Below the pieces are notes generated by a model, which was given only the letters and a program-made list of their open reading frames with translations, was not told the DNA's origin and ran no database searches. From Thiomonas intermedia (GTDB taxonomy: Bacteria > Pseudomonadota > Gammaproteobacteria > Burkholderiales > Burkholderiaceae_C), in the NCBI GenBank assembly GCA_022730375.1, contig DZDA01000005.1, positions 1 to 57,159 of the forward strand: a DNA stretch of 57,159 bases, written 5' to 3'. Each line of letters opens with the position of its first letter. The first letter of the stretch is position 1. A program made the translations under genes and the position numbers. Below, piece after piece: positions 123-27,604 of this stretch.

Positions 123-1556
123 TTAGCGAGGCACGCGCATCACCTTGAGCATATTGGTGCCGCCCGCCGTGCCAATCGGCTCGCCGCAGGTGATGGCGTA
201 GCTGTCGCCAGAGGCCACGGCGTTTTTCTCGATCAGCCGGGCTTCGGCCTGGTTGAGCAGGGCGTCGCGGTCGGTGGTGCTGAAGCTCAGCAGCATCGGG
301 CGCACATTGCGATACAGCGCCATGCGGCGCACCGAGGTTTCGCTGCGCGACAGCGCATAAATCGGCACATTGACACGGTGGCGGCTCATCCACAGCGCGG
401 TGGAACCTGATTCGGTCAGCGCCACAATCGCCTTGCAGCCGAGGTGGTGCGCGGTGAACAGCGCGGCCATGGCGATCGACTGGTCGATGCGGGTGAACTG
501 CTTGTTGACGAAGTCGTGTTCGAGCTTGACCTCCTCGACGGTTTCCGCCGCCTCGCAGATGCTGGCCATCGCCTCGACCGTCTCCACCGGGTACTTGCCC
601 GCCGCCGTTTCCGCCGAGAGCATGACCGCATCGGTGCCGTCGAGCACCGCGTTGGCGACATCGGACACTTCGGCGCGGGTGGGTACGGCGTTGACGATCA
701 TCGACTCCATCATCTGGGTGGCGGTGATCACCACACGATCCATTTCGCGCGCCATGCGGATCATGCGCTTTTGCAGCGCGGGCACTGCGGGATTGCCGAC
801 TTCCACCGCGAGGTCGCCACGCGCCACCATGATGCCGTCGGAGGCGCGCAGAATTTCCGCCAGCGCCGGAATCGCCTCGACCCGCTCGATCTTGGCGATG
901 AGCGCGGGCTTGTGGTGGTAGGGCTCGGCGGCGACGTTGGCGAGTTGCCGCGCCAGCTCCATGTCGGTGGCATTTTTGGGAAAGGACACGGCCAGATAGT
1001 CGGCCTGGAAGGACATCGCGGTGCGAATGTCCTCCATGTCCTTGGCGGTGAGGGCGGGGGCCGACAGGCCGCCGCCCTGCTTGTTGATGCCCTTGTTGTT
1101 CGACAGTTCGCCGCCGATGGTGACGACGGTGTGGATTTCTTCTCCGCTCACATTCTCGACGGTGAGCACGATGAGGCCGTCGTTGAGCAGCAGACGGTCG
1201 CCCGCGTGCACGTCGCGCGGCAGGTCTTTGTAGTCCAAGCCGCAGCGGGTTTCATCGCCGATTTCGCAGGTGGCGTCAAGAACGAATTTCTGCCCGGGTT
1301 CCAGCATGACCTTGCCGTCCTTGAAGCGGCCGACCCGAATTTTCGGGCCTTGCAGATCGGCCATGATGGCAACGGACTTGCCCAGGCGGGTGGCCGTTTC
1401 GCGGATGAGTTGGGCGCGGTCGATATGGTCTTGCGCCTTGCCATGAGAAAAGTTGAGCCGAACGACATCGACCCCGGCCGCGAGCATGCGTTCGAGGATG
1501 TCTGGCGAGGAACTGGCGGGGCCGATGGTGGCAACGATTTTGGTGGCGCGGGACAT
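123..1556 (-). CDS. pyk: Pyruvate kinase
   Basis: Converts phosphoenolpyruvate and ADP to pyruvate and ATP, the last step of glycolysis, in the cytosol. The protein (477 aa from this start, usual for bacterial type II enzymes) opens with MSRATKIVATIGPASS, carries the N-terminal barrel signature VVRLNFSHG, the active-site region ALIAKIERVEAI and MVARGDLAVEVG, and the metal- and substrate-binding run ITATQMMESMI. The regulatory C-terminal domain is complete. An upstream in-frame ATG at 1583 would add nine unconserved residues, so I chose the ATG at 1556. It is transcribed alone, divergent from the diguanylate cyclase gene, and ends at a strong hairpin. Recognition is secure. Confidence 0.96.
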   Translation of the reverse strand: MSRATKIVATIGPASSSPDILERMLAAGVDVVRLNFSHGKAQDHIDRAQLIRETATRLGKSVAIMADLQGPKIRVGRFKDGKVMLEPGQKFVLDATCEIGDETRCGLDYKDLPRDVHAGDRLLLNDGLIVLTVENVSGEEIHTVVTIGGELSNNKGINKQGGGLSAPALTAKDMEDIRTAMSFQADYLAVSFPKNATDMELARQLANVAAEPYHHKPALIAKIERVEAIPALAEILRASDGIMVARGDLAVEVGNPAVPALQKRMIRMAREMDRVVITATQMMESMIVNAVPTRAEVSDVANAVLDGTDAVMLSAETAAGKYPVETVEAMASICEAAETVEEVKLEHDFVNKQFTRIDQSIAMAALFTAHHLGCKAIVALTESGSTALWMSRHRVNVPIYALSRSETSVRRMALYRNVRPMLLSFSTTDRDALLNQAEARLIEKNAVASGDSYAITCGEPIGTAGGTNMLKVMRVPR

Positions 1557-1739
1557 GGTTAGCGGGATATGGGGGATGGGCAAAAGAAGGCGATCAGTGA
1601 AAATGTGGAATCCCTCACAGGAAACCGGGGTGTAGTGTAGAGCGTGCTCTTGACGATTTCGCGCCAGCCGTCAGAATCTCGTCAGCCCGGTTGACCCGGC
1701 GCACTCCGAAAAATCCCGACACGTCACTTGTCTTCCTCT

Positions 1740-3095
1740 ATGAGCGACCCTTTTCAGCCCGAGCCCAATCCGGCCATGAGCCCCAGGGCGGAGCTTTGGC
1801 CCGGACTGGCCGCCGTGCCGGAAGTCAGAAGCCTGCTGGAAGCGGTCGATCTGCCCATAGGTCGTTGGGACGCCGACGGACGGCTGACTTTTTTCAATCC
1901 GCCCTATCTGAGCTGGGCACGGCGAAAGCCTGACCAACTGCGCGGCAGAACGCTCAAAGAGCTTTACGGCGATGAGGCCTGGACTGCGGCGCAGCCTGCG
2001 TTCGAGCGGGGATTCGCGGGCCAGCAGGCCGATTACCTGCGCCTGCTGCGTCACCTTGATCCGCCGCGCTGGGCGCGGATCCAGGTGTTCCCCGAGCGGG
2101 GAGCGGGCGGGCGTATCGAAGCCATCTACACCATTGCGCACGATGTGCACGACGACGTCACTGCTGCGATGGCGCTCAAGCGCTCGAACTGGCTGCTCGA
2201 ACAGGCGCTGGACAATCTGCCCTGGGGCGTGATCGAGAGCAACGCCGAACTCATCGTCACGCGGTGGACGCGTTCGGCCGAGGCCATTCTGGGCTACTCC
2301 GAGGCCGAACGTCTGGGCACGCATCGCCTGGCCATGGGGGTGCCCGAGGAGGAGCGTGCGCGCACTCTGGCGGTCTATGAGCGTTTGCTGCTCGGAGAGA
2401 TCGACAGCTGGGTGGAACAGGCGCAATACATTCGCAAGGACCGGCGGCGGATCTGGGTGGAATGGACGCTGTCGGCGCTGCGCGACGAGGAAGGGCGCGT
2501 GGTTTCGCTGTTGACCTTCGTGCGCGACATCACCCACCAGATTGACACCCACGCCCGGCTGCTGCACCGCGCCGAACGCGACGCGCTGACGGGGGTGCTC
2601 ACCCGCCGCGCCATCATGGAGCGGCTCGATACCGCGCTGGCGCGACGCACCCGCGACGACATGCTCGCCCTGTGCTTCATCGATCTCGACGGCTTCAAGC
2701 AGATTAACGACCGCCTCGGCCATGTGCGCGGCGACCGTCTGCTGGTGCAGGTGGCGCACGCCATGCAGGACGTGCTGCGGCGCGACGACGCCATAGGGCG
2801 CATCGGCGGCGATGAGTTTGTGGTGCTCAGCGCCGTGGCCGATCTGTCGGCAGCGCAGTCGCTCGCGGCCAAGCTCGTTGAGGTCTGCGCGGCGGCGGGC
2901 TACGACCTGCTCTCAGGCATGCGGGTTACGGCCAGTATCGGTGTGGCGGCCGCGCCCACGCACGCGCGCAGCAGCTTCGAGTTGCTGCAACGCGCCGATG
3001 ACGCCATGTATGTGGCAAAACAGCAGGGTAAAAATCGCTGGAACCTGTGTCACCGACACATCGATGGAGCCGACTTCGCAACGCATCGCCCGTAA
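1740..3095 (+). CDS. PAS-PAS-GGDEF diguanylate cyclase
   Basis: Probably makes the second messenger cyclic di-GMP from two GTP. The 451-residue protein has two PAS-like sensor regions (about 30-140 and 150-270, the second ending in the VRDITHQ linker typical of PAS/PAC) followed by a GGDEF domain (about 275-440). The catalytic motif GGDEF is intact at 356-360 and the product-inhibition site RxxD (RRDD, 347-350) lies exactly five residues before it, so feedback inhibition is expected. There is no EAL domain, no membrane segment and no signal peptide, so it should be cytosolic; the ligand is unknown. The start is uncertain: an in-frame TTG at 1728 and ATGs at 1740 and 1776 all lack a good ribosome site; I took 1740. 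Confidence 0.9.
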   Translation: MSDPFQPEPNPAMSPRAELWPGLAAVPEVRSLLEAVDLPIGRWDADGRLTFFNPPYLSWARRKPDQLRGRTLKELYGDEAWTAAQPAFERGFAGQQADYLRLLRHLDPPRWARIQVFPERGAGGRIEAIYTIAHDVHDDVTAAMALKRSNWLLEQALDNLPWGVIESNAELIVTRWTRSAEAILGYSEAERLGTHRLAMGVPEEERARTLAVYERLLLGEIDSWVEQAQYIRKDRRRIWVEWTLSALRDEEGRVVSLLTFVRDITHQIDTHARLLHRAERDALTGVLTRRAIMERLDTALARRTRDDMLALCFIDLDGFKQINDRLGHVRGDRLLVQVAHAMQDVLRRDDAIGRIGGDEFVVLSAVADLSAAQSLAAKLVEVCAAAGYDLLSGMRVTASIGVAAAPTHARSSFELLQRADDAMYVAKQQGKNRWNLCHRHIDGADFATHRP

Positions 3096-7914: not shown

Positions 7915-9666
7915 TTAGCCCAATGCCGCGAGCGCCGCTTGCAGTTCTTCGGGCTCGAAGCTCGACAGCACGGTCTGCACCAGCGGCGTGAGCTTGTCGG
8001 GGTCGGCGCGCAGCACCTCTTGTTTGACCGCGAGAATCTGCGACGGATGCATGGAAAAACTGCGCAGGCCCATGCCCAGCAGCAGGCGGGTCATGGTCGG
8101 GTCGCCTGCCATTTCGCCGCACACGCTTACTTCCACCGGCCGGCCCTTCCAGGCGGCCGCGGCGCGGGTCTGGGCGATGATCTGCGCCAGCAGGTTGAGC
8201 ACTGCGGGATGCAGCGGGTCGTAGAGGTTGGAGACGCTCTCATCCGCGCGGTCGATGGCCAGGGTGTATTGCACGAGATCGTTGGTGCCGACCGATAGAA
8301 AGTCGAAATGCCGCAAAAACAGCGGCAGCGCCAACGCGGCGCCTGGCACTTCGATCATCGCGCCCATTTCCACCGGACCGTATGAAACGCCCTTGGCATC
8401 GAGTTCGGCGCGGGCCTTGTCGAGTTCGGCAAGGGTCTGGCGGATTTCGCTGGCGTGCGCCACCATGGGGATGAGCACCTTCAGCGGCCCGAGCGCGGCG
8501 GCGCGCAGCAAGGCGCGCAACTGCATGCGGAACATCGCCGGGTCGGACAGGCTGTAGCGAATGGCGCGCAGCCCCAGCGCCGGGTTGAGATGGGTGAACT
8601 CGCCGTCGCGATAGTCGTCGGCGTCGAGCGGTTTGTCCGAGCCGATATCGATGGTGCGGATGGTGACCGGCTTGCCCAGCATGGCCTGCATCACGCGGCT
8701 GTACGCGGCGTACTGCTCGTCTTCGCCGGGCAGATGATCACCACGATTCATGAACAGGAATTCCGTGCGGAACAGGCCCACCCCCATCGCACCGGCATCG
8801 AGCGCGGGCGCGCAGTCTTCGGGCTGTTCGATATTGGCGAGCAGTTCCACCGGCTCGGCGTTGAGGGTGCGCGCCGGGGTGAATTTCAGGCGCTTGAGCC
8901 GTTCGCGGGCGAGCTGCGATTCTTGCTGGCGCAGGCGGTAGTCTTCGAGGATGACGGGTGAGGGATCGACAATGAGCAGCCCGCTGTCGCCGTCGATGAT
9001 GACCAGATCGTCCTGGCGGATCAGGTTGCCGGCCGAGCGCGCGCCCACCACTGCGGGAATGTCCAGACTGCGGGCGACGATGGCGGTGTGCGAAGTCTTG
9101 CCGCCCACATCGGTGACGAAGCCGCGGAACACCCCGGTCTTGAACTGCAGCATGTCGGCCGGGGCGATGTCGTGGGCGATGAGCACCAGATCGCCGTTGC
9201 CGCTGGCCGAGCGGGCCAGCCCCGCGCTGCCGCGCAGGGCGCGTAGCACGCGCTCGACCACCTGCTCGACGTCGGCAATGCGCTCGCGCAGATAGGCGTC
9301 GTCCATTTCCTCGAAATTGCGCGAAATGACGTCGAGCTGGGCGGTGAGCGCCCACTCTGCGTTGTAGCGGCGCTGGCGAACCCAGGTGATGGTGTCGAGC
9401 GCCATCTGCCGGTCATCGAGCAGCATTTTGTGCACGTCGATGAAGGCCGCCATTTCGGCCGGGGCATCGGCCGGCAGATCAGCCTTGAGGGTGTCGAGTT
9501 CGGCGCGCACGGCGCGGCGCGCGGCGCGCAGGCGCTCAATTTCCGCCTCTTCAGTGCCGGGGTCGACGAAGTAATGCGCCACGTCCAGCCGGGCCGAAGC
9601 GAGGATGACGGCACGCCCGATGGCCATGCCGCGAGAAACCGGAATACCGAACAGTTGAAGAGCCAT
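7915..9666 (-). CDS. ptsI: Phosphotransferase system enzyme I
   Basis: Cytosolic enzyme I takes phosphate from PEP and passes it to HPr. The protein (583 aa, normal length) starts MALQLFGIPVSRGMAIG, has the phospho-acceptor histidine in GGKTSHTAIVARS (His193), and the PEP-binding barrel with LFRTEFLFMNR, IRTIDIGSDKPL and the cysteine region VSVCGEMAGDP. An upstream in-frame start at 9735 adds an unconserved basic leader. Betaproteobacteria usually carry manX-ptsH-ptsI together, but here HPr and EIIA lie about 10 kb away on the same strand. No EIIB or EIIC is seen in the window, so this may be a mainly regulatory PTS. Confidence 0.96.
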   Translation of the reverse strand: MALQLFGIPVSRGMAIGRAVILASARLDVAHYFVDPGTEEAEIERLRAARRAVRAELDTLKADLPADAPAEMAAFIDVHKMLLDDRQMALDTITWVRQRRYNAEWALTAQLDVISRNFEEMDDAYLRERIADVEQVVERVLRALRGSAGLARSASGNGDLVLIAHDIAPADMLQFKTGVFRGFVTDVGGKTSHTAIVARSLDIPAVVGARSAGNLIRQDDLVIIDGDSGLLIVDPSPVILEDYRLRQQESQLARERLKRLKFTPARTLNAEPVELLANIEQPEDCAPALDAGAMGVGLFRTEFLFMNRGDHLPGEDEQYAAYSRVMQAMLGKPVTIRTIDIGSDKPLDADDYRDGEFTHLNPALGLRAIRYSLSDPAMFRMQLRALLRAAALGPLKVLIPMVAHASEIRQTLAELDKARAELDAKGVSYGPVEMGAMIEVPGAALALPLFLRHFDFLSVGTNDLVQYTLAIDRADESVSNLYDPLHPAVLNLLAQIIAQTRAAAAWKGRPVEVSVCGEMAGDPTMTRLLLGMGLRSFSMHPSQILAVKQEVLRADPDKLTPLVQTVLSSFEPEELQAALAALG

Positions 9667-9830
9667 GCGGCGATGGTAACGGCGGCGCGGCGGCGCAAAA
9701 CACCCTGCACTGCGTAATACCAGACGGGCCAGCAAGGAGATGCGCGGCTCATTAAGCTATCCAAAGCACTTTTGCGCCGCAGAGCGCGCGGTGTTTTCCC
9801 TGATCAATGCACTTTTCTCTGGAGTTCACC

Positions 9831-10235
9831 ATGCACAAACTTGCACTATCCCTGGCCCTGCTCGGCTTTGCCGCCGCACCGGCATTTGCATCCACCATGC
9901 ATCACGAGCTCAAGATCGAGCTTGCCGCACAGAACAACTCCGGCGAGACCGGCTACGCCCTGATCAAGCCCATGGGCAAGGGCATCGAAGTCATCGTCCA
10001 TATCAAGGGCGGCCCCAAGGGCGTGGCGCAGCCAGACCATATCCATCCCGGCACCTGCGCCAACCTCAACCCGGTCCCCAAATACCCTCTGGAAAACGTG
10101 GTGGACGGCAAGTCGGTCACCAAGCTGCCGGGGGTGAGCATGGATGATCTGTTCAAGGAGCCCATGGCCATCAACGTGCATGAAAGCGCGCAGGACCTGA
10201 AGAAATACGTGGCCTGCGGCGACATCAAGAAATAA
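9831..10235 (+). CDS. Secreted SOD-like protein with a copper-triad pattern but no zinc loop
   Basis: A 134-residue exported protein of uncertain function. Residues 1-21 are a signal peptide (cleavage near AFAS). By eye the mature part follows the Cu/Zn superoxide dismutase order: an HxH pair in QPDHIHPGTC (His70, His72) like the copper ligands His46/His48, the disulfide cysteine (Cys76), a later VHESAQDL (His117) like copper ligand His120, and VACGDI (Cys129) like the conserved ACG near the SOD C-terminus. The bridging His63 and zinc ligands are absent because that loop is missing. It may bind copper, or be a CHRD-type relative. Start ATG has GGAG seven bases upstream. The gene is divergent from ptsI and ends at a terminator. 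Confidence 0.8.
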   Translation: MHKLALSLALLGFAAAPAFASTMHHELKIELAAQNNSGETGYALIKPMGKGIEVIVHIKGGPKGVAQPDHIHPGTCANLNPVPKYPLENVVDGKSVTKLPGVSMDDLFKEPMAINVHESAQDLKKYVACGDIKK

Positions 10236-10269: not shown

Positions 10270-10298
10270 ACGGGGCGTCGCGAAGGCGCCCCGTTTTC
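10270..10298 (+). terminator. Intrinsic terminator after the SOD-like gene
   Basis: An 8-bp GC-rich stem (ACGGGGCG at 10270-10277 with CGCCCCGT at 10287-10294) is followed by TTT. It lies 35 bp after the stop codon and just before the GNAT ribosome site, so the GNAT gene probably has its own promoter or relies on read-through. Confidence 0.7.
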
Positions 10299-10314
10299 AT
10301 TGGAGATGTGCAGC

Positions 10315-10794
10315 GTGATCACCTTTGTCGATGTCGATCTGTCCCGCCCCGAGCATGCCAGCGCGGTGCTGGAACTCATTTCCCGCTACGCCCGCGATCC
10401 GATGGGGGGCGGCGAAGACCTCGCGCCCGAGGTCAAGGCCGTGCTGGTGCAGCGCCTGCGCGAGCGTTCTGATTATTTCGGCGCCCTCGCCTTGGACGGC
10501 GCCACACCCGCCGCGCTGATCAACTGCTTCGAGGGGTTTTCCACCTTCATGGCCCGGCCGCTGATGAACGTGCATGACGTGTATGTGGAGCCGGCCTACC
10601 GCGGCCAGGGACTGTCGCGCCGCCTGCTGCAGCGGGTGGAAGACGTGGCGCGCCTTCGGGGCTGCGGCAAGCTCACCCTGGAAGTGCTCGACGGCAACGC
10701 GTCAGCCATTGCCAGTTATCGCCGTTTCGGCTTCGAGACCTACGCCCTGGACCCGGCGCATGGCCGGGCGCAGTTCTGGCAGAAAAAACTTTGA
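10315..10794 (+). CDS. GNAT-family N-acetyltransferase
   Basis: A single-domain cytosolic acetyltransferase of about 159 residues using acetyl-CoA; substrate unknown. The acetyl-CoA site is clear: VHDVYVEPAYRGQGLSRRLL contains the motif A pattern R/QxxGxG/A (RGQGLS), followed by LTLEVLDGNASAIASYRRFGF, the motif B region. The best ribosome site, GGAG at 10302-10305, is nine bases before the GTG at 10315; an ATG at 10306 touches the GGAG directly and would be poorly spaced. The gene converges on the TRAP permease gene with only four bases between stop codons. Confidence 0.88.
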   Translation: MITFVDVDLSRPEHASAVLELISRYARDPMGGGEDLAPEVKAVLVQRLRERSDYFGALALDGATPAALINCFEGFSTFMARPLMNVHDVYVEPAYRGQGLSRRLLQRVEDVARLRGCGKLTLEVLDGNASAIASYRRFGFETYALDPAHGRAQFWQKKL

Positions 10795-10798
10795 TCTT

Positions 10799-12883
10799 TC
10801 AGGCTGCCGCTTGTGCGGCCTGGCTTCGCGTGCGCAGGCCATGCCACACCAGTACGACAGCGGCGAGCACGAACCCGGCTTCATCGGTCATTGGCAGCGC
10901 CGTGATCAGCAGTGCGGCGGCGGCAAAGGCCAGCAGACGCTCCAGTACGGTCATGTTGGCGCGTAGATAGCCCACGGCCACCGCGCCCCACAACACAATG
11001 GCCAAAATGGCCTTGGCCGTCACATAGGCCACACCCAGCCAGGTCCAGTCGCCTTGCAGCATGAGCTGCGGGTCGTACACCGCCATATACGGCACGACGA
11101 AACCCGCCAGCGCGATCTGCGTAGCCTTGAAGCCGATGCGCATGGGCGAGGCCTTGGCTACCGAGGCGGCCGCGAACGCGGCCAGCGCCACTGGCGGCGT
11201 GAGGTCGGCCATGATGCCGAAATAGAACACGAACATGTGGCTGACGATGAGCGGCACGCCCAGCTTGAGCAGGGCGGGCGCGGCAATCGAACTGGTGATG
11301 ATGTAGTTCGGGATGGTGGGAATGCCCATACCCAGCACCAGACAGACCAGCATGGTGAGCAGCAGCGACAGCAGCAGGCTGTGCGCGCCGATGTCCACGA
11401 TGAACCCTGCAAAGCTCGTGGCCGCGCCGGTGAGGGTGAGCACGCCGACGATCACGCCGACGATGGCGCAGGCGATGCCCACCGGCAGCGCTTGGCGGGC
11501 GCCGTCGATCAGGCTGTCGCGCAGCACGCTCAGGGTTTGATGTCCGCCCTTGACCACCAGGTTGATGGCGACCAGCGCCGCAATGACGCCCAGCACCGGC
11601 AGGATGCCGAACTGCAGGAACGCCGCCGCGCCCAGACCGCAGGCAAACCAGAACACCATGCGGAACGCCGTGTGCGAGATGCGCGCGGCGATGGCTGCGC
11701 CCAGCAGCAGAATGGCAGTGAGCGACAGCCCCATCATGCCAGCGAACATGGGGGTGAAGCCGTGGAACAGCATCCACACCAGCGCAGCCAGCGGCAAGGC
11801 CAGGTGCCAGTTTTCCTTCAGCGCCTTCCAGGGGTTGGGAATCTGGTCGGCAGGCAGTCCGAGCAGCTTTTTGCGCCCTGCCTCCAGATGCACCATCCAG
11901 AACGCGGTGAGGTAATACAGCGCGGCAGGGATGACGGCCGCCTTGACGATGTCGGCATACGCCACATTGAGCGTTTCGGCCATGATGAAGGCCACCGCGC
12001 CCATGACCGGCGGCATGATCTGCCCGCCCATGCTGGCCGTGGCTTCCACCGCCCCGGCGAACACCGGCGAGTAGCCGAAGCGCTTCATCAGCGGAATGGT
12101 GAACTGGCCTACCGTGAGCACATTGGCCACGCCGGAGCCGGAGATGGTGCCCATCAATCCGGAAGAGATGACCGCCACCTTGGCAGGGCCGCCGCGCGCC
12201 TTGCCCACCAGCCCCAGCGCCAGTGCGTTGAACAGCCGGATCATGCCGGCATGCTCCAGAAACGCGCCGAACAGAATGAACAGAAAGATGTAGGTCGCCG
12301 ACACCAGGGTGGGAATGCCGTAGATGCCCTCGGTGCCGAGATAGAGCTGGTTGATGATCTGGTCGAGCCCGTAGCCGCGGTGGCTGATGGCGTCGGGCAG
12401 GTACTGGCCGAACAGGCCGTAGAGCAGAAAGGCTGCGCACACCAGCGGCAGCGCCAGGCCCAGACTGCGCCGGGCCGCCTCGAACAGCAACACCACCACC
12501 GCGGCGCCGACCCAGAGGTCGGCGAGCGTCGGGTCGCCGCTGCGCTGAATCAGGTCGGCTTCGAAAAACCAGTGATACAGCCCGAGCCCGAAGGCGGCAG
12601 CGCCCAGCAGCCAGTCGAACCACGGAATGCGGTGCATCCAGCTCCCGCGCTTGAGCGCCGGCACGACCCAGAACACCAGCAACATCAGAAAGCCCACATG
12701 CAGCGAGCGCATCACCAGGCTCGACAGCGGATGGAAGGCGGCCACGACGAGCTGATAGGCCGAAAAGGCCAGCGCAGCCGCCATGACGGTGCGCTGCGCG
12801 AGCCCGGAAAGACTGCGCTGGTGGCCGCTGTCGGCGTGCGGCTCGGAGGAAGTGTGGATCAGGTCGTCGGCGTTGGCGCTCAT
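10799..12883 (-). CDS. TRAP transporter fused permease (small plus large subunits, TAXI type)
   Basis: A 694-residue inner-membrane protein with roughly 18 hydrophobic segments. It fuses the four-helix DctQ-like part (residues about 30-150) to the DctM-like 12-helix translocator: MGTISGSGVANVLTVGQFTIPLMKRFGYSP and MPPVMGAVAFIMAE are typical of the 4TM/12TM fused family, and the C-terminal 180 residues resemble the DUF3394 extension. Sodium- or proton-driven uptake with the receptor encoded just upstream is expected. The gene follows the TAXI receptor gene after 98 bp, which contain a small hairpin (GTGGC and GCCAC around 12915-12927). Substrate cannot be read from sequence; known TAXI systems take up dicarboxylates or glutamate. 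Confidence 0.92.
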   Translation of the reverse strand: MSANADDLIHTSSEPHADSGHQRSLSGLAQRTVMAAALAFSAYQLVVAAFHPLSSLVMRSLHVGFLMLLVFWVVPALKRGSWMHRIPWFDWLLGAAAFGLGLYHWFFEADLIQRSGDPTLADLWVGAAVVVLLFEAARRSLGLALPLVCAAFLLYGLFGQYLPDAISHRGYGLDQIINQLYLGTEGIYGIPTLVSATYIFLFILFGAFLEHAGMIRLFNALALGLVGKARGGPAKVAVISSGLMGTISGSGVANVLTVGQFTIPLMKRFGYSPVFAGAVEATASMGGQIMPPVMGAVAFIMAETLNVAYADIVKAAVIPAALYYLTAFWMVHLEAGRKKLLGLPADQIPNPWKALKENWHLALPLAALVWMLFHGFTPMFAGMMGLSLTAILLLGAAIAARISHTAFRMVFWFACGLGAAAFLQFGILPVLGVIAALVAINLVVKGGHQTLSVLRDSLIDGARQALPVGIACAIVGVIVGVLTLTGAATSFAGFIVDIGAHSLLLSLLLTMLVCLVLGMGIPTIPNYIITSSIAAPALLKLGVPLIVSHMFVFYFGIMADLTPPVALAAFAAASVAKASPMRIGFKATQIALAGFVVPYMAVYDPQLMLQGDWTWLGVAYVTAKAILAIVLWGAVAVGYLRANMTVLERLLAFAAAALLITALPMTDEAGFVLAAVVLVWHGLRTRSQAAQAAA

Positions 12884-12981
12884 GGCTGGAATCCGAGGCG
12901 TGTGAAGGCCGCTCGTGGCGGCGCCACACGATGGATGAGACGCCCCATTCAGGCGGGCCGAGGCGAAAATGCCATGCCGGT

Positions 12982-13962
12982 TTACTTCAGTACACCCGCT
13001 TCGCGGTAGTACTTGGCCGCGCCCGGGTGCAGCGGCACGGGCGAATTGAGCGGCGCGTCCTTGAGGCTGATGCCCTTGGCTGCGGAGTGCGCCGCCACTA
13101 GTTCGGGCAGGTGGGTGAATAGGGCCTTGGTCATCTGATAGACCAGTTCTTCGCTCAGTCCCTCGCGGGTGACGAGGAAGTTCTGGATGCGCGCCGTCGG
13201 CACCGCGGCGGTCTGGCCTTCATAAGTGTTCGCCGGAATGACCCCGCTTTGATACGCCGGATCGCCCACCTTGGCGATGATGTCGGCAGGTACGGGAACG
13301 ACCACGATTTTTTGCGACGCAGCCAGATCGCGCAACGAAGCTACGCCCAGCCCGGCCGATTGCAGCGTAACGTCGAGCTGACGGTTTTTCATCAGTTCCA
13401 CCGATTCGCCGAAGGGCAGGTATTCGACCTTGGAAAAGTCTTTGTAGCTCAGCCCGGCAGCCTTGAGCAAGGCGCGGGCGTTGAGTTCGGTGCCGCTCTT
13501 GGGCGCACCAACCGAGATGCTCTTGCCTTTCAGATCGGCCAGGGTCTTGATGCCGGAATCTTCGCGCGCCACGATCTGCACATAGTTGGAATAGATCGCC
13601 GCTAGGGTGCGCAGCTTTTTCAGCGGGGCTTTGAACCCGGCGTCGGCCTCGCCTTTCCAGGCGTCCGAAAGGGCGTCGCCCAGCGAGAAACCCAGCTCGG
13701 CGCGGCCGGCTTCGAGCAGATTGAGGTTTTCCACCGAACCCTTGGTCGCTTGAACCGAACTCTTGGCGGCGGGTATGGCCTTGGTGTAGATCTGTGAGAG
13801 CGCAACGCCCAGCGGGTAGTACACCCCGCTGGTGCCGCCGGTGGCGATGGTGAGGTACTCGGCCGCAAACGCAGGGCGCAGGGCCAGGGGGGAGAGCAAA
13901 GCGGCGCCGCCAGCGAGCGCAAGGACGCGGCGGCGAGCGGGGGAGGCGGGGTTGCGAGTCAT
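12982..13962 (-). CDS. TAXI-family TRAP transporter solute-binding receptor
   Basis: A periplasmic receptor of 326 residues delivering substrate to the fused TRAP permease encoded directly downstream. The mature start YLTIATGGTSGVYYPLG is the TAXI family signature, and later LKGKSISVGAPKSGTELNA and LPFGESVELMKNRQLDV fit the fold. The signal peptide contains RRRVLAL followed by a mildly hydrophobic stretch and a Pro/Ala-rich cleavage region ending AFA, which could direct it to Tat export; tatABC is in this window. Two ATGs are in tandem; the second (13962) has GGAG at the better seven-base spacing. It lies 79 bp after the ABC ATPase gene on the same strand, so one long transport operon is possible. 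Confidence 0.93.
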   Translation of the reverse strand: MTRNPASPARRRVLALAGGAALLSPLALRPAFAAEYLTIATGGTSGVYYPLGVALSQIYTKAIPAAKSSVQATKGSVENLNLLEAGRAELGFSLGDALSDAWKGEADAGFKAPLKKLRTLAAIYSNYVQIVAREDSGIKTLADLKGKSISVGAPKSGTELNARALLKAAGLSYKDFSKVEYLPFGESVELMKNRQLDVTLQSAGLGVASLRDLAASQKIVVVPVPADIIAKVGDPAYQSGVIPANTYEGQTAAVPTARIQNFLVTREGLSEELVYQMTKALFTHLPELVAAHSAAKGISLKDAPLNSPVPLHPGAAKYYREAGVLK

Positions 13963-14041
13963 CATCGATCTCCGTGGTTGTGTTGTTACAAACGGAAACG
14001 ATGCTAATGCCTCTGGGGCCAAATGCAACTGGGCAATGACC

Positions 14042-21479: not shown

Positions 21480-21634
21480 CCGCCATGTATATATCGCGTG
21501 ACCTCGCCGCGCGGGGCGGCTATCCTCGAAGCAGTCTGCCCCGCGTGGGGGCTATACACCTGAGGGTGTAGTCGTTTCGGGGTCGGTTTCACGCATTCCT
21601 TGTTTAGATTTCCTCTTTCTGGCGGAGCTGGATG

Positions 21635-23107
21635 ATGACGGATTCCATGCCTCGACGCGTGCGCGTTGGGTTGTTGGCAGGTGCTTGTCTTTACGTTCTC
21701 GGGAGTATGGCGTCGGCGCAGGCTGAGACGCTGGATTTCCGTCAGGCGGTGGACGTGGCGCTGAGGCAGAACCCCGATTTGCTCGGCGTACAGGCACAGA
21801 TGGCGCAGGCGCGTGCCGGCATCAATCAGGCCGAGGGCGCCAAAATGCCCAAGATCACGGTGTCGGCGGGGGTTACCCGGACCAACGATGCGCTGAATGC
21901 CTTCGGCATCAAGCTGTCGCAGCGGCAGGCGACGTTCAATGACTTTGGCGCTGGGCAGTTCGACCCGACCAACCCCAATGTGCTGAGCGTGGCCCCCAAC
22001 TCGCTCAACTATCCGGGCTCGGTCAACAACTTCAACACCCGCATCCAGGCCGAGCTGCCGATTTACACCGGCGGCAAGTTGCAGGGGTATCTGCAACAGG
22101 CCCGCTCCATGCTGATGGCGGCACAGGCGGGCGATCAAGCGGCCAAGCAGCAGATCATCTATCACGCGCTGCAGGCGTATGACGGGGTTTATACCGCGCG
22201 CGCCTTCAAGGGCGTGGCGGGCAAGGCGCTGGAAGCGTCGCAAAGCCAGGTGAAAACGGTGGACAGCCTGTTCAAGCAGGGGGTGGTGATCAAAAGCGAT
22301 TTGCTTTCCGCGCAGGTGCGTCAGGAAGACGTGAAGCTGCAACAGGATCAGGCCGCCAATATGGAAGCGCAGGCGATGGACGCGCTGCATGTGGTGCTCG
22401 GCGTACCGCTGAACCAGCCCATCACCTTGGGGCCGGAGGTCATGGTGACCCTGCCCGAGGGCGACCCGAATGCGTGGGTCGGACAGGCGATGGAGCGCAA
22501 TCCGAAAATTCAGGCGCTGCAGCACCAGATTGCCGCGGCTGGCGGCAAGATCGAGGTAGCGCGCGCTGACCGCTATCCGCAGGTCGGCGCCATGGCGCGG
22601 TTCGATACCAATGATCCCAACGTCGGCTTCGAATCGCGCAGTTACACCGTGGGCGCGCAGCTCAACTGGACCATTTTTGACGGCGGCGTGACGCAGAACG
22701 CGGTCGATCAGGCCGTGGCCAAGCGCATGGAACTGCAGGCCAAGCTGCAGAGCGAACAGAACCAGCTTGGCATGCAGGTTCAGGACAGCTACCGCAAGGC
22801 CATCGACGCGTCCAATCAGGTCAAGACCCGCGAGCTGGCGGTCAAGCAATCCGAGGAGGCGGCACGCATTGTCAGCAAACGCTATGCCGATGGCGTGGGC
22901 ACGTTGGTAGAAGTGCAGGGCGCACAGGCACAGCTCGACAAGGCCCGGGCTGACCTCATCATGGCCAAGCAGCAGGTCAATATGCAGCGCGCCGCGTTGC
23001 GGCTGGCGATTGGTGATCTGACGCTCGACGCCACGCAGCCGATCAAGCCGGTGGCGCAAGCCGCGGTGGTGCAGACTGTTGCTGCAGACGCGCCCCCCAA
23101 ACCCTGA
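21635..23107 (+). CDS. TolC-family outer-membrane efflux channel
   Basis: A 490-residue outer-membrane protein with a signal peptide (cleavage near ASAQA) and two TolC/OEP repeats of long coiled-coil helices, e.g. RQAVDVALRQNPDLLGVQAQMAQA and LGVPLNQPITL at the end of the first half, then VGAQLNWTIFDGGVT in the second. No lipobox, so it is TolC-like, not an OprM-type lipoprotein. It would form the exit duct for the adaptor and RND pump encoded next. GGAG lies seven bases before the ATG at 21635; an ATG at 21632 is spaced less well. The 77 bp after it show no terminator. Confidence 0.93.
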   Translation: MTDSMPRRVRVGLLAGACLYVLGSMASAQAETLDFRQAVDVALRQNPDLLGVQAQMAQARAGINQAEGAKMPKITVSAGVTRTNDALNAFGIKLSQRQATFNDFGAGQFDPTNPNVLSVAPNSLNYPGSVNNFNTRIQAELPIYTGGKLQGYLQQARSMLMAAQAGDQAAKQQIIYHALQAYDGVYTARAFKGVAGKALEASQSQVKTVDSLFKQGVVIKSDLLSAQVRQEDVKLQQDQAANMEAQAMDALHVVLGVPLNQPITLGPEVMVTLPEGDPNAWVGQAMERNPKIQALQHQIAAAGGKIEVARADRYPQVGAMARFDTNDPNVGFESRSYTVGAQLNWTIFDGGVTQNAVDQAVAKRMELQAKLQSEQNQLGMQVQDSYRKAIDASNQVKTRELAVKQSEEAARIVSKRYADGVGTLVEVQGAQAQLDKARADLIMAKQQVNMQRAALRLAIGDLTLDATQPIKPVAQAAVVQTVAADAPPKP

Positions 23108-23184
23108 AAGCGCGGCCGACCGGGCGCTTTGCCCGTCTGCCGCGCGCCGTTTCCTGAAGTGCATCCGAATCTGATCTTTCTCTC

Positions 23185-24285
23185 ATGACCGCCATGAACC
23201 ATTCTGTCCTGCCTTTGCTGCGTCGTGCGCCGCTGGCCCTCGTGCTGTCCACGGCCCTGTTGTCGGCCTGCGGTCATCCCTCTGAGACCGCGCAAACCCC
23301 CGCAGCGCCCCGCGTGGTGGCGGCGCAAACGCTCAAGCTCGCTTCGAGCGATCAGAAAAATCTCACCCTGCTGTCGGGCACGGTGATGTCGAGCAATCAG
23401 GTGCAGATCGCGTCGCGGTTGATGGGCTATATCCGCACCCTCAATGTCAAAGAAGGGCAGACCGTGAAGGCCGGACAGTTGCTGTTCCAGGTCGATCCCA
23501 CCGATATTCAGGGTCAGGTGGCGCAGGCTCGCGCTGGGCTGGCGCAGGCGCAGGCCAATCTGGCCAATGCCAAGGGTGATTTCGAGCGCTTTGGCAATCT
23601 GTACAAAGAGCAGGCCATCCCCAAGCAGCAGTGGGATCAGATCCAGTTGCGCTATCAGGTGGCGCAGGAGCAGGTGGCCGCCGCGCAGGCCGGTTACAAC
23701 ACCGCTGCAGCGCAGATGCGCTACTCCTCCGTGACCTCGCCGATCACCGGTGTGGTGGTGCAGAAGATGGCCAACCAGGGTGACCTGGCCGCGCCGGGCC
23801 GCCCGGTGCTGGTGATCGAAGGGCAGGGCAAGCTGCAGGTGACGACGCAGGCGCCGGGTGATGTGTTCGCCAAGATCAAGGTGGGCGACAAGGTGCAGGT
23901 GCTGGCCAACGGCAAATCGCTTCAGGGCACCATCGCCCAGGCTGTGCCGGTGGCTGACCCGATGAGCCACACCCACACGGTGAAGATCGACCTGCCAGCC
24001 AACGCCGGGCTGGACAGCGGCAGCTTCGTGCGCGTGGGCTTTGCCGTCGGCAGTTCACCGCAGTTGCGTGTGCCGCAAAGCGCCGTGGTCGATCGCGCCG
24101 GGATGACCGGGGTGTTCGTCGTTGACAAGGACGGAATCGCCCACTTCCGGCTGGTGCGTCTGGGTGCGCAGATGGGCGCCGACGTCGAAATTCAGGCCGG
24201 GCTGAACGCGGACGACACCATCGTCACCAGTAATCTGCCTGAAGTGGAAAACGGCGTGAAGATCGGCGGAGGCAACCGTGGCTGA
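23185..24285 (+). CDS. RND efflux periplasmic adaptor lipoprotein (HlyD/AcrA family)
   Basis: A 366-residue membrane-fusion protein linking the RND pump to the outer-membrane channel. The signal ends in a lipobox (LLSAC), so it is lipid-anchored like AcrA. The lipoyl/barrel-sandwich halves are visible (GYIRTLNVKEGQTVKAGQLLFQVD and SPITGVVVQKMANQGDLAAPG) around a coiled coil (about 115-175), then a beta-barrel and membrane-proximal domain. No His-rich metal-binding extension is seen, unlike several heavy-metal adaptors. It overlaps the pump gene by eight bases, so translation is likely coupled. Confidence 0.93.
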   Translation: MTAMNHSVLPLLRRAPLALVLSTALLSACGHPSETAQTPAAPRVVAAQTLKLASSDQKNLTLLSGTVMSSNQVQIASRLMGYIRTLNVKEGQTVKAGQLLFQVDPTDIQGQVAQARAGLAQAQANLANAKGDFERFGNLYKEQAIPKQQWDQIQLRYQVAQEQVAAAQAGYNTAAAQMRYSSVTSPITGVVVQKMANQGDLAAPGRPVLVIEGQGKLQVTTQAPGDVFAKIKVGDKVQVLANGKSLQGTIAQAVPVADPMSHTHTVKIDLPANAGLDSGSFVRVGFAVGSSPQLRVPQSAVVDRAGMTGVFVVDKDGIAHFRLVRLGAQMGADVEIQAGLNADDTIVTSNLPEVENGVKIGGGNRG

Positions 24286-27200
24286 ACATGCGGCTCCCAT
24301 AAACAGCGCGGGCAAGCTGGCGCGCGCCTTCATCGAATCGAAGATCACCGCCCTGATCATGGTCGGTCTCACCCTCGCCGGGGTGCTGGCCTTGCTGGTC
24401 ACGCCGCGCGAATACAACCCGCAGATCGTGGTGCCGGCGGCGAACATCATCGTCGCCAAGCCGGGTGCGGGGCCGCAGGAGATTCAGAATCTGGTGGTCA
24501 AACCGCTCGAAGCCATCATGGCCTCGATGTCCGGCGTCGATCACACCTATGGCTATGCGACCAACGACTTCGGCGTGGTCACGGTGCAGTTCAAGGTGGG
24601 CGAAGACCAGGAGAAAAGCCTGGTCAAGATGTACAACCAGTTGATGCAGAACCTCGACCGAATTCCGCCCGGGGCCATGCAGCCGGTGATCAAGCCGATC
24701 AATGTGGACGACGTGCCCATCCTCACCCTGACGCTGTCGTCGGCGCAGATGAACGGCATGCAGCTGCGTGACGTGGGCGAGAAGGTGCTGGCGCATCTGC
24801 GCAATGTGCCCGGGGTGTCGTTCACCGAGGTGGTGGGCGGCGCTCCCCGCGCGGTGAACGTGGCGATTTCGCCGAGCAAGCTGGCGGCCGCCGGCATTCC
24901 GCTAGAACAGCTCGACAAGATTCTGCAAGGCAGCAATGCGGCAGCGCCCATCGGCAATCTGGTGGACGGCAACAAGGTCACTCCGGTTCGCATCGACAGC
25001 TTCCTCGGCAACGCACAGCAGGTGGGCGACATCCTGATCGGTGCGCCGGGCGGCAAGCCGGTCTATCTGAAGGATGTGGCCAAGGTCACCGAAGGGCCGG
25101 AGCAGGTGGACGACCTCTCGCACTTCGCCTGGGGTCTGGCCGCCAAGGGCAAGCCGCATGGTCAGGAGATGAGCGCGGTCACCCTGGCCATCGCCAAGAA
25201 ATCGGGCACCAATGCGGTGGTCGTGGTGCACGATGTGCTCGCCAAGCTCAGCGAGATCGAGAGCTATGCGCTGCCGCAGGGCGTGCATGTCACCGTGACC
25301 CGCGACGACGGCCACAAGGCCAACGAGGCGGTGAACACGCTGGTGGAGCATCTGGGCATTGCCATTGTCAGCGTGTCGCTGCTGCTGTGGTTCTTCCTCG
25401 GCTGGCGCGAGGCGGGCATCGTGACGCTTACCGTGCCGCTGACGCTGTTTGCCGTGCTCACGGTCGATCTGATCGTCGGCCAGACCATCAACCGCATCAC
25501 CCTGTTCGCGCTCATTCTCTCGCTGGGTCTGCTGGTGGATGGCGCCATTGTGGTGATCGAGAACATCCACCGACACCTGCATGGCGGGCCGATCAAGAAC
25601 TTTAATCGAACGGTGATTCAAGCAACCAACGAGATCGGCAACCCCACCAATATGGCGACGCTGGCGGTGATTCTCGCCTTCGTGCCGATGGCCTTTGTCA
25701 GCGGCATGATGGGGCCGTTCATGCGCCCCATCCCCATCAACGTGCCGGTGGCCATGATCGCTTCGCTCATCCTGGCCTATACCGTGGTGCCCTGGGCGGC
25801 GCGCGTCTGGCTGAGCAAAAAAGCCATGCGCGAAGCCCTGGCGCACAGCAGCAGCCTGGAAGAAGAAGGCGCGCACAAGCAGGACAAGCTGCACACGGCC
25901 TATCTGAAACTGATCGAGCCCATGCTGCGCAGCCGCACCCGGCGCAACCTCATGTTCCTCGCCGTGCTGCTGCTGCTCATCGTGGCCATGCTGATGCCGG
26001 CTTGGCAGTTCATCCGGCCCTCGGGAATGAACGGGCCTTTGTCGGCTCTGGGCGTTGAACTCAAGATGCTGCCCAACGACAACACCAACACCTTCCTGGT
26101 GCAGGTCGATACCCCGGCGGGTTCCACGCTGGAGCGCACCGATCAGGTGGCGCGCGCGGTGGGCGATGTGCTGGCCGCCAATCCTTATGTGGTCGATTAC
26201 CAGACCTTTGTTGGACAGGCAGCGCCGATCGACTTCGCCTCGCTGGTGCGCGGCGACATGCTCAAGCGGGGTGACAACTTCGCGCAGATCCGCGTGAACC
26301 TCGTAGGCAAAGGCGAGCGCTCGGTCGAGTCTCACGAAATCGTGCAGAAGCTCTATGACCAGTTGGCCCCGGTGCGCGCACGTTTCCCGTCCACCTTCAT
26401 CAAGCTGTTTGAAACCCCGCCGGGCCCGCCGGTGCGCGCGCAGGTCATGGCCGAGTTGTATGGGCCGAACTACGACACCCTGCGTTCCTCCGCCAAGGAC
26501 GTGCTGGGCGACTTCGACAAAACCTACGGCCTGATGAACCGGGACGACTCGGTGACGTCCACGACGTCGGAATACCGCATCAAGATCGACCGCCAGAAAG
26601 CGGCGATGTCGGGCATCGTGCCGGGGCAGATCATCCAGCTGCTGCACAACTATGTGTCGGGGCTGAAGGTTGGTGCGGTGCATGACAGCAACGCGCTGGA
26701 GCCGGTCAACATCATCGTGCGCGTGCCGCGCGCCGATCGCCAAAGCCCGCAGCAACTGCTCGACGTGCCGATCCAGAATGCGCAAGGCAAGGTGATTCCG
26801 CTCTCCGCCATCGCCACGGTGGAGAAGGCCACGCTGGCCAAGCCCATCTACACACGCGACCAGCATCCGGTGGTTTATGTCGGTGGCGAGATGATTCATT
26901 CGAGCCCGGTCTATGCCACCCTGAGCCTGAACTCCATGCTCGACGGCAAGAAACTGGCCAACGGAACCACCTTCACCACTGGCAACCTCGGCTTCACCGA
27001 AACCCCGGCCAGCGACCTCAAGGGTTATCAGTTGCTCTGGGGCGGCGAAATGCGCCTGACGCTCGACGTATTCCGCGATCTGGGCGCTGCCTTCATGGTG
27101 GCACTGGTGTTCATCTACCTGCTGCTGGTGGCGTATTACAAGTCCTTCCTGTTGCCGGTCATTGTGATGGGCGCCATTCCGCTGACGCTGATTGGCGTGT

Positions 27201-27604
27201 TCCCCGGCCACTGGATCACGCATCAGTCGTTCACCGCCACGTCGATGATCGGGGTCATCGCGCTGGCCGGCGTGGTGGTGCGCAACTCGCTGCTGCTGAT
27301 CGACTTCATCCTCGACTACCGCGCCCGCGGCTACAGCCTGCAGGAGTCGGTGGCGCAGGCCGGCGCGGTGCGTCTGCGACCCATTTTGCTCACCGCCCTG
27401 GCCATCATCTTCGGCTCGGCGGTCATGGTGTCCGATCCGGTGTTTGGCGGGCTGGCCGTGTCGCTGATTTTCGGCACCCTGCTGTCCACCATCCTCACCC
27501 TGATCGTCATCCCTCTGCTCTACTACGTCTGGCAGATCCGGGTGAAGCCCAAAGTTCCGCCCAAGGCCCCGGCCGCACCGGCTGAACCTGTGCTGACGAC
27601 TTGA
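24278..27604 (+). CDS. RND-family efflux pump, inner-membrane subunit
   Basis: A 1108-residue proton-driven pump with the usual RND layout: TM1, large periplasmic loop, TM2-6, a second loop, TM7-12. In TM4 the proton-relay motif reads LGLLVDGAIVVIENI (Asp421, Glu428): the second Asp of the HAE1 pair DD is Gly, as in metal pumps of the CzcA type, but the extra CzcA Asp six residues earlier is Ser. It therefore fits neither the drug nor the metal branch cleanly, and the substrate is unknown. The start is GTG with GGAGG five bases upstream, inside the end of the adaptor gene. A small DUF2892 gene follows by 38 bp. Confidence 0.93.
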   Translation: MAEHAAPINSAGKLARAFIESKITALIMVGLTLAGVLALLVTPREYNPQIVVPAANIIVAKPGAGPQEIQNLVVKPLEAIMASMSGVDHTYGYATNDFGVVTVQFKVGEDQEKSLVKMYNQLMQNLDRIPPGAMQPVIKPINVDDVPILTLTLSSAQMNGMQLRDVGEKVLAHLRNVPGVSFTEVVGGAPRAVNVAISPSKLAAAGIPLEQLDKILQGSNAAAPIGNLVDGNKVTPVRIDSFLGNAQQVGDILIGAPGGKPVYLKDVAKVTEGPEQVDDLSHFAWGLAAKGKPHGQEMSAVTLAIAKKSGTNAVVVVHDVLAKLSEIESYALPQGVHVTVTRDDGHKANEAVNTLVEHLGIAIVSVSLLLWFFLGWREAGIVTLTVPLTLFAVLTVDLIVGQTINRITLFALILSLGLLVDGAIVVIENIHRHLHGGPIKNFNRTVIQATNEIGNPTNMATLAVILAFVPMAFVSGMMGPFMRPIPINVPVAMIASLILAYTVVPWAARVWLSKKAMREALAHSSSLEEEGAHKQDKLHTAYLKLIEPMLRSRTRRNLMFLAVLLLLIVAMLMPAWQFIRPSGMNGPLSALGVELKMLPNDNTNTFLVQVDTPAGSTLERTDQVARAVGDVLAANPYVVDYQTFVGQAAPIDFASLVRGDMLKRGDNFAQIRVNLVGKGERSVESHEIVQKLYDQLAPVRARFPSTFIKLFETPPGPPVRAQVMAELYGPNYDTLRSSAKDVLGDFDKTYGLMNRDDSVTSTTSEYRIKIDRQKAAMSGIVPGQIIQLLHNYVSGLKVGAVHDSNALEPVNIIVRVPRADRQSPQQLLDVPIQNAQGKVIPLSAIATVEKATLAKPIYTRDQHPVVYVGGEMIHSSPVYATLSLNSMLDGKKLANGTTFTTGNLGFTETPASDLKGYQLLWGGEMRLTLDVFRDLGAAFMVALVFIYLLLVAYYKSFLLPVIVMGAIPLTLIGVFPGHWITHQSFTATSMIGVIALAGVVVRNSLLLIDFILDYRARGYSLQESVAQAGAVRLRPILLTALAIIFGSAVMVSDPVFGGLAVSLIFGTLLSTILTLIVIPLLYYVWQIRVKPKVPPKAPAAPAEPVLTT

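Follow-up and report, generated by a model that had tools for sequence, protein, structure and literature searches.

A putative exported protein of Thiomonas intermedia with a predicted superoxide dismutase fold, three candidate copper-ligand histidines and no zinc site

The window, the whole stretch of 57,159 nucleotides of Thiomonas intermedia DNA that was analysed, contains a gene for a protein of 134 residues with the predicted fold of superoxide dismutase (SOD) (Table 1). The open reading frame (ORF) is a real gene: it has 28 relatives, a terminator-like hairpin lies behind it, and its dN/dS against 8 relatives is 0.03–0.19, which shows that the protein is under strong purifying selection. 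GGAG is found six bases 5' of the ATG at 9831, and an alternative in-frame ATG lies upstream, at 9807. The hairpin region, a stretch of 48 bases, has a folding energy of -21 kcal/mol (z -4.0). The gene probably has its own transcript, since the upstream ORF (7915-9735), presumably for a PTS enzyme I-like protein, is in the opposite orientation and the downstream ORF (10300-10794, + strand), which we take to be acetyltransferase-like, lies beyond the hairpin. No promoter of the sigma-70 type came up in a consensus scan at the gene, with 0.4 expected and 0 found. There is one copy of the gene in the genome. Further along the window, two ORFs at 10799-14028 seem to resemble a TAXI-TRAP transporter, with a fused permease and a solute-binding protein, and three consecutive ORFs at 21632-27604 what we assume to be an RND efflux set of outer-membrane factor, periplasmic adaptor and pump.

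Table 1. Features of the SOD-fold gene and its protein, and loci of two groups of relatives
Feature	Coordinates	Strand	Basis or remark
Gene for the 134-residue protein with predicted SOD fold	9831-10235	+	stop codon 10233-10235 included; relatives, dN/dS
Signal peptide, residues 1-20 (MHKLALSLALLGFAAAPAFA)	9831-9890	+	sequence, pLDDT, A20 conservation; putative cleavage site
H70-I-H72, candidate ligands for copper at the HxH position of SodC	10038-10046	+	profile register, conservation
C76, first of the disulfide cysteines, at the loop cysteine position of SodC	10056-10058	+	register, conservation; putative disulfide
H117, third of the candidate ligands for copper, at the late His position of SodC	10179-10181	+	register, conservation
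Y126, SodC catalytic Arg position, three before last Cys	10206-10208	+	Tyr 42/46, Ser 4/46
C129, second disulfide cysteine, within ACG	10215-10217	+	register, conservation; putative disulfide
Intrinsic-terminator-like hairpin 3' of the gene	10270-10294	+	10 pairs
Divergent SOD-fold subfamily adjoining gene for ~440-residue protein	L124:5006-7229, L125:5007-7273, L126:5016-7161, L127:3591-5426		
Remote relatives without H70	L041:1408-1923, L043:1129-1923, L045:742-1191 and 1456-1926		two tandem copies in one genome

Residues 1-22 of the window protein have pLDDT values under 50 in the predicted structure, and A20 is invariant in all 46 members of the family. Cleavage of the signal peptide would fit best after A20 (between AFA and ST), leaving a mature protein of 114 residues, STMHHELK...CGDIKK. 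The sequence-only reading had described a secreted protein with a mature part of 113 residues; the signal peptide is there, and the length was one residue short. H70, H72, C76, H117 (in V116-H117-E118) and C129 (in A128-C129-G130) are found in the ORF where that reading had placed them. Single-sequence searches with the window protein gave no Sod_Cu or CHRD match in Pfam, and none in NCBIfam or among the PDB sequences. Its sole Pfam match, SoxG (E 0.0064, 17.1 bits), was rejected because it is below the cut-off of 21 and conflicts with the predicted fold; the same match was seen in 6 of the 29 members scanned. A PDB match of the family profile to chlorite dismutase (E 1.2) was taken as chance.

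AlphaFold models were made of two members that are 51% identical to each other. The model of the window protein, from a 29-row alignment, has a mean pLDDT of 83.1 (at least 90 for 76 residues) and a pTM of 0.75, and the separately predicted second model reaches 83.0 and 0.75. When a structural aligner was run on Foldseek candidates, all 50 matches listed for each model were SOD-fold proteins, with Z from 11.9 to 13.3 and an rmsd of 2.0–3.2 Å over 101–115 residues. They were Cu/Zn SODs, CCS, which is the copper chaperone of SOD, and once the SOD-like protein of Bacillus subtilis. For the window model, the best among the matches listed had a Z of 12.9 and an rmsd of 2.2 Å across 106 residues; for the second model the values were 13.3 and 2.5 Å across 107 residues. 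All 50 PDB matches listed by Foldseek for the window model were likewise SOD or SOD-like, the best with E 1.3e-3 (1xtm); with Foldseek alone no PDB match reached E 0.001, and its TM-scores of 0.43–0.61 are over the whole model with the unstructured signal peptide included. No CHRD structure was among the PDB matches listed, a listing that is silent on CHRD membership. In the model, strand 69-75 carries H70 and H72, strand 112-119 carries H117 and the last strand carries C129, and these seem to correspond to the strands of SOD that bear its copper ligands and its second disulfide cysteine. The SOD-like fold suggested from the sequence is thus supported by structure prediction and fold search: the predicted models have the Greek-key barrel of Cu/Zn SOD, and the matches listed were to SOD folds and not to an unrelated one. 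The Bacillus subtilis protein (1xtm and 1s4i, the latter also among the structural matches listed) is a bacterial SOD-fold protein as well. It is not known to have copper ligands, which agrees with 1xtm being titled a double mutant, Y88H-P104H; the family described here differs in that it retains all three copper-ligand histidines.

A scan for close relatives gave 29 loci, 28 of which hold true relatives of the gene. The remaining one, from Opitutaceae (L029), was dropped because its match, in a frame of 534 residues, was confined to the signal-peptide end of the query (residues 4-60). The relatives come from Thiomonas species and from MAGs labelled Thiomonas, Burkholderiaceae, Burkholderiales, Betaproteobacteria, Proteobacteria or Acidiferrobacter. 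The genome searches were made within the phylum of the window, while the close-relative scan and the searches of plasmid, phage and virus collections reached further. With the window's own genome counted, the gene is present in 9 of 13 genomes of the genus and 2 of 100 of the family. A profile match at E 0.001 was found in 6 of 369 genomes of the class; besides the window's own there was a single close match (E 1e-67), the other four genomes having remote or CHRD-like matches. In the order that contains this close match, 19 of 57 genomes carry the gene. At the limits used there was no relative in 298 other genomes or in phages, and four pattern matches in viral contigs were not confirmed as relatives; a BFVD search gave SOD-like and CHRD proteins of viruses, with E-values of 0.007 and weaker. 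Of the 72,556 plasmid records a single one had a relative, that of Thermomicrobium roseum DSM 5159, which is 47% identical across residues 24-133 and annotated as 'CHRD domain-containing protein'. This relative has a C-terminal hydrophobic stretch.

The first 28 relatives were found by peptide patterns, two of them containing the histidines, so conservation among them is biased. The set used for conservation has 51 rows (29 initial, 21 from profile searches, and Thermomicrobium), 46 of which are non-identical; these form 14 clusters at 80%, and the lowest pairwise identity is 35%. The 21 profile-search rows are less biased and agree with the first set, though some duplicate the first 28. Twenty-four positions are invariant in the 46 members, among them H70, H72, C76, H117 and C129. 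A further histidine that precedes the HxH, H57, was weighed as a possible fourth ligand but then discarded; it is invariant in the first 29 members, yet His in just 37 of the 46. The proteins have two conserved cysteines and an ACG or SCG, in the window protein as ACGDIKK.

To compare the family with its possible kin we used 24 SodC proteins and 34 CHRD domains, all from the class of the window, so the result is a local one. The SodC set was reduced from 25 by filtering out L105 (no HxH, and also without the usual zinc loop), and the fragments L106-L108 were left out; the CHRD domains come from 22 genomes, with some repeats of one protein, and the filter removed none of the 34. In hhalign, 100–103 columns of the family aligned to SodC with the HxH, the cysteine, the late histidine and the last cysteine in register, although one earlier run ended before the last cysteine. 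The wide alignment scored 30.3, as compared to a mean of 12.7 and a highest value of 27.3 in 150 column-permuted controls, and a reversed alignment scored 17.1 against a real 27.8; the probability was modest, 10–55% across runs. Because the five residues are invariant in all 46 members, and the score in this register is above all 150 controls, the agreement is more than chance. The copper histidines and disulfide cysteines are then ordered as in Cu/Zn SOD, as the sequence-only reading had it.

The likeness to SodC (Sod_Cu, PF00080) consists of the predicted fold, the HxH, the disulfide cysteines, the late histidine and an ACG-x-I in register, and the difference is that the family has no bridging histidine, zinc ligands, electrostatic loop or catalytic arginine. 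Pfam Sod_Cu had no match at E 1 in any of the 29 members scanned. The SodC columns, identified by order, are filled in 23 of 24 proteins for the bridging histidine, in 24 and 22 for the two further zinc histidines and in 23 for the zinc aspartate. None of 30 family members has the motifs of the bridging histidine and zinc ligands, and the loop is deleted in the alignment to SodC; it had been claimed already from the sequence that these residues are gone. Since those columns have no counterpart in the family, the metal would be copper rather than zinc. The catalytic arginine, three residues before the last cysteine in 23 of 24 SodC proteins, is never found in the 46 members.

Enzymes without zinc are known. 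According to the available text of PMC13017621, the fungal Cu-only SODs (Candida albicans SOD5) and the animal CSRP have no zinc site or long loop VII, but a disulfide and an open copper site; the fungal enzymes are exported, are fast despite the missing zinc and long electrostatic loop, and retain the bridging histidine and a pair of acidic residues, E110/D113, whereas a mycobacterial Cu-only SOD has a full loop VII and a closed site. The family is similar in that the zinc site and the long loop VII are lost and the disulfide cysteines kept. It differs in having just three invariant histidines, with no bridging one, and in being bacterial here where fungal Cu-only SOD and CSRP are eukaryotic. 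The E110/D113 pair is also absent, because the stretch from C76 to T97 has just four residues in between that are invariant in the 46 members, P81, P83, L87 and G93, none of them acidic. The suggestion that the protein could be a copper-only SOD is therefore not supported in the fungal sense, with no bridging histidine, no invariant acidic residue from C76 to T97 and Tyr or Ser at the Arg position.

It is conceivable, but in our opinion unlikely, that the protein would nevertheless be a working zinc-free superoxide dismutase that replaces SodC outside the cytoplasm with three copper histidines only. The predicted fold is the same, the three ligands are in register with SodC, and the fungal enzymes (PMC13017621, in its available text) are examples of fast zinc-free SODs that also lack the long electrostatic loop. 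SodC and the SOD-fold gene are also seldom in the same genome: Sod_Cu has no match in any of the 13 genomes of the genus, 9 of which have the SOD-fold gene, and in one order of 57 genomes (SOD-fold 19, SodC 10) only one has both. This is a weak argument, with a Fisher p of 0.14, or 0.043 when the 13 genus genomes are added, and kinship uncorrected. The simultaneous absence of the bridging histidine, the acidic pair and the arginine, whose position is Tyr or Ser throughout the family, argues against a fast dismutase.

The sequence-only reading had also pointed to CHRD domains for comparison, which turned out to be apt, since CHRD is closer in sequence than SodC, the other family compared: hhalign of the family against CHRD scored 39.3 (E 1.3e-6, probability 91%), with 150 permuted controls at most 20.5 and a reversed alignment at 20.6 against a real 29.1. 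SodC against CHRD directly scored 18.3, with controls at most 18.1. In this sample the family is therefore closer to SodC and to CHRD than these two are to each other, and by sequence it is placed between SodC and bacterial CHRD, with CHRD the nearer of the two. The window protein by itself scored weakly against locally built models, 5.4 bits for SodC and 5.9 for CHRD.

Bacterial CHRD domains (PF07452) share with the family the HxH, a late N-V-H and the lack of a zinc or electrostatic loop. In the 34 sampled (L051-L055, L057-L085), the HxH is present in all and the late histidine, mostly as N-V-H, in 33, at the positions of three copper ligands of SOD. The ends of the proteins differ. A C-terminal strand like GEIRGQ is found in 32 of 34 CHRD domains as compared to 1 of 30 family members (loose pattern), and ACG is in none of the CHRD domains, 26 of which have no cysteine, where the family has two cysteines and ACG or SCG. 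Pfam CHRD matched none of the 29 members scanned, the window protein among them, and the Thermomicrobium relative is just over the cut-off, 24.5 as compared to 24.1. In the available parts of PMC3608174, PMC7522526 and PMC5776111 bacterial CHRD proteins are mentioned with no metal test, and the literature searched, in the parts available, gave no report of copper in them.

The closeness to CHRD could suggest a metal-free domain that acts at the cell surface, structurally or in binding, with histidines kept for another reason. The Thermomicrobium match to Pfam CHRD points the same way, and so does chordin, whose CHRD domains adopt the SOD fold without any visible metal, and for which the authors consider SOD activity unlikely (PMC13382577, available text). 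Moreover, the site is missing from some relatives: four more distant proteins, encoded in three genomes of a single other genus, have kept both cysteines and lost H70, three of them also the late histidine, and are probably metal-free forms, which means that the fold can exist without the site. These proteins (L041, two at L042/L045, and L043; family profile E 4.4e-8 or better) and the CHRD-like L044 (E 8.1e-6) are not among the 46. On the other hand, chordin has not conserved the histidines that coordinate metal, according to the same part of PMC13382577, whereas all three are present in the 46 members, and bacterial CHRD keeps them as well (33–34 of 34). We regard a metal-free role as improbable. 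Since bacterial CHRD has kept the histidines, the three-histidine constellation may be an older feature of the CHRD group, which chordin may have lost.

The neighbouring genes, mostly read by eye, vary between lineages, and no recurrent copper gene was seen near the SOD-fold gene. Pfam searches with 8 neighbour proteins gave matches for CtaA and a Rho_N protein. In one locus (L012) a fragment with the motif DKTGTLT, presumably that of a P-type ATPase, lies about 1.8 kb from the gene. In Thermomicrobium roseum (L056:3929-4967) the gene of a lipoprotein-like cupredoxin follows 13 bases downstream of the relative, and the two are possibly a copper pair.

In a second, divergent subfamily the SOD-fold gene adjoins, in all four loci, a gene for a protein of about 440 residues that has a signal peptide, a single CxxCH and the stretch PS[FY]ARQTG..CEVCHT.FPELTPFGRLFKLNGYTLTG. 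The four closest copies of this protein in 57 genomes are exactly those of the four loci (68–100% identity, query included; the next is 47%). It is perhaps an outer-membrane monoheme cytochrome, Cyc2-like, and the SOD-fold protein could then be a periplasmic copper electron carrier, for instance from such a cytochrome to the respiratory chain. We find this very unlikely. The protein of about 440 residues had no match in Pfam (4 of 4 copies), NCBIfam (2 of 2 tried) or the PDB sequences (1 of 1 tried), and nothing like it adjoins the gene in the subfamily to which the window protein belongs. An open three-histidine site is also not typical of fast electron transfer.

Copper binding appears to be the likeliest job of the protein, judged from its three invariant copper-ligand histidines, the loss of all zinc features and the signal peptide. 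We propose, with moderate confidence, a zinc-free SOD-fold protein with three histidines that probably binds copper, and is more likely a handler of copper than a fast dismutase. The cupredoxin gene beside the Thermomicrobium relative and the lack of Sod_Cu matches in the genus speak for this reading; the modest profile link to SodC, the remote proteins that have lost the site and the varied neighbourhoods of the gene speak against it. It would be a single-domain protein exported to the periplasm, with the predicted beta-barrel of Cu/Zn SOD from which the zinc loop and the electrostatic loop are cut away. H70 and H72 on one strand and H117 on another would form an open site, and the same three histidine ligands hold copper in reduced Cu/Zn SOD. 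A disulfide between C76 and C129 would pin the loop. Copper could thus be bound outside the cytoplasm and buffered or handed on, with a dismutase activity that would be slow at most. The gene is found in Thiomonas, Acidiferrobacter and relatives, and these live in acid or metal-rich water.

If this is true, a bacterial protein of 114 residues with an open three-histidine site would be a smaller, bacterial counterpart to the copper-only proteins of eukaryotes. The family combines a CHRD-like core and the cysteine pair of SOD in one protein. A wider idea, which we put forward tentatively and consider rather doubtful, is that the family and bacterial CHRD together form a large, overlooked group of zinc-free SOD-fold proteins with a three-histidine copper site, and that the family links chordin-type domains to Cu/Zn SOD. 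The family protein would be a small, soluble test case for whether bacterial CHRD binds copper, and for how the chordin repeats are related to the SOD fold.
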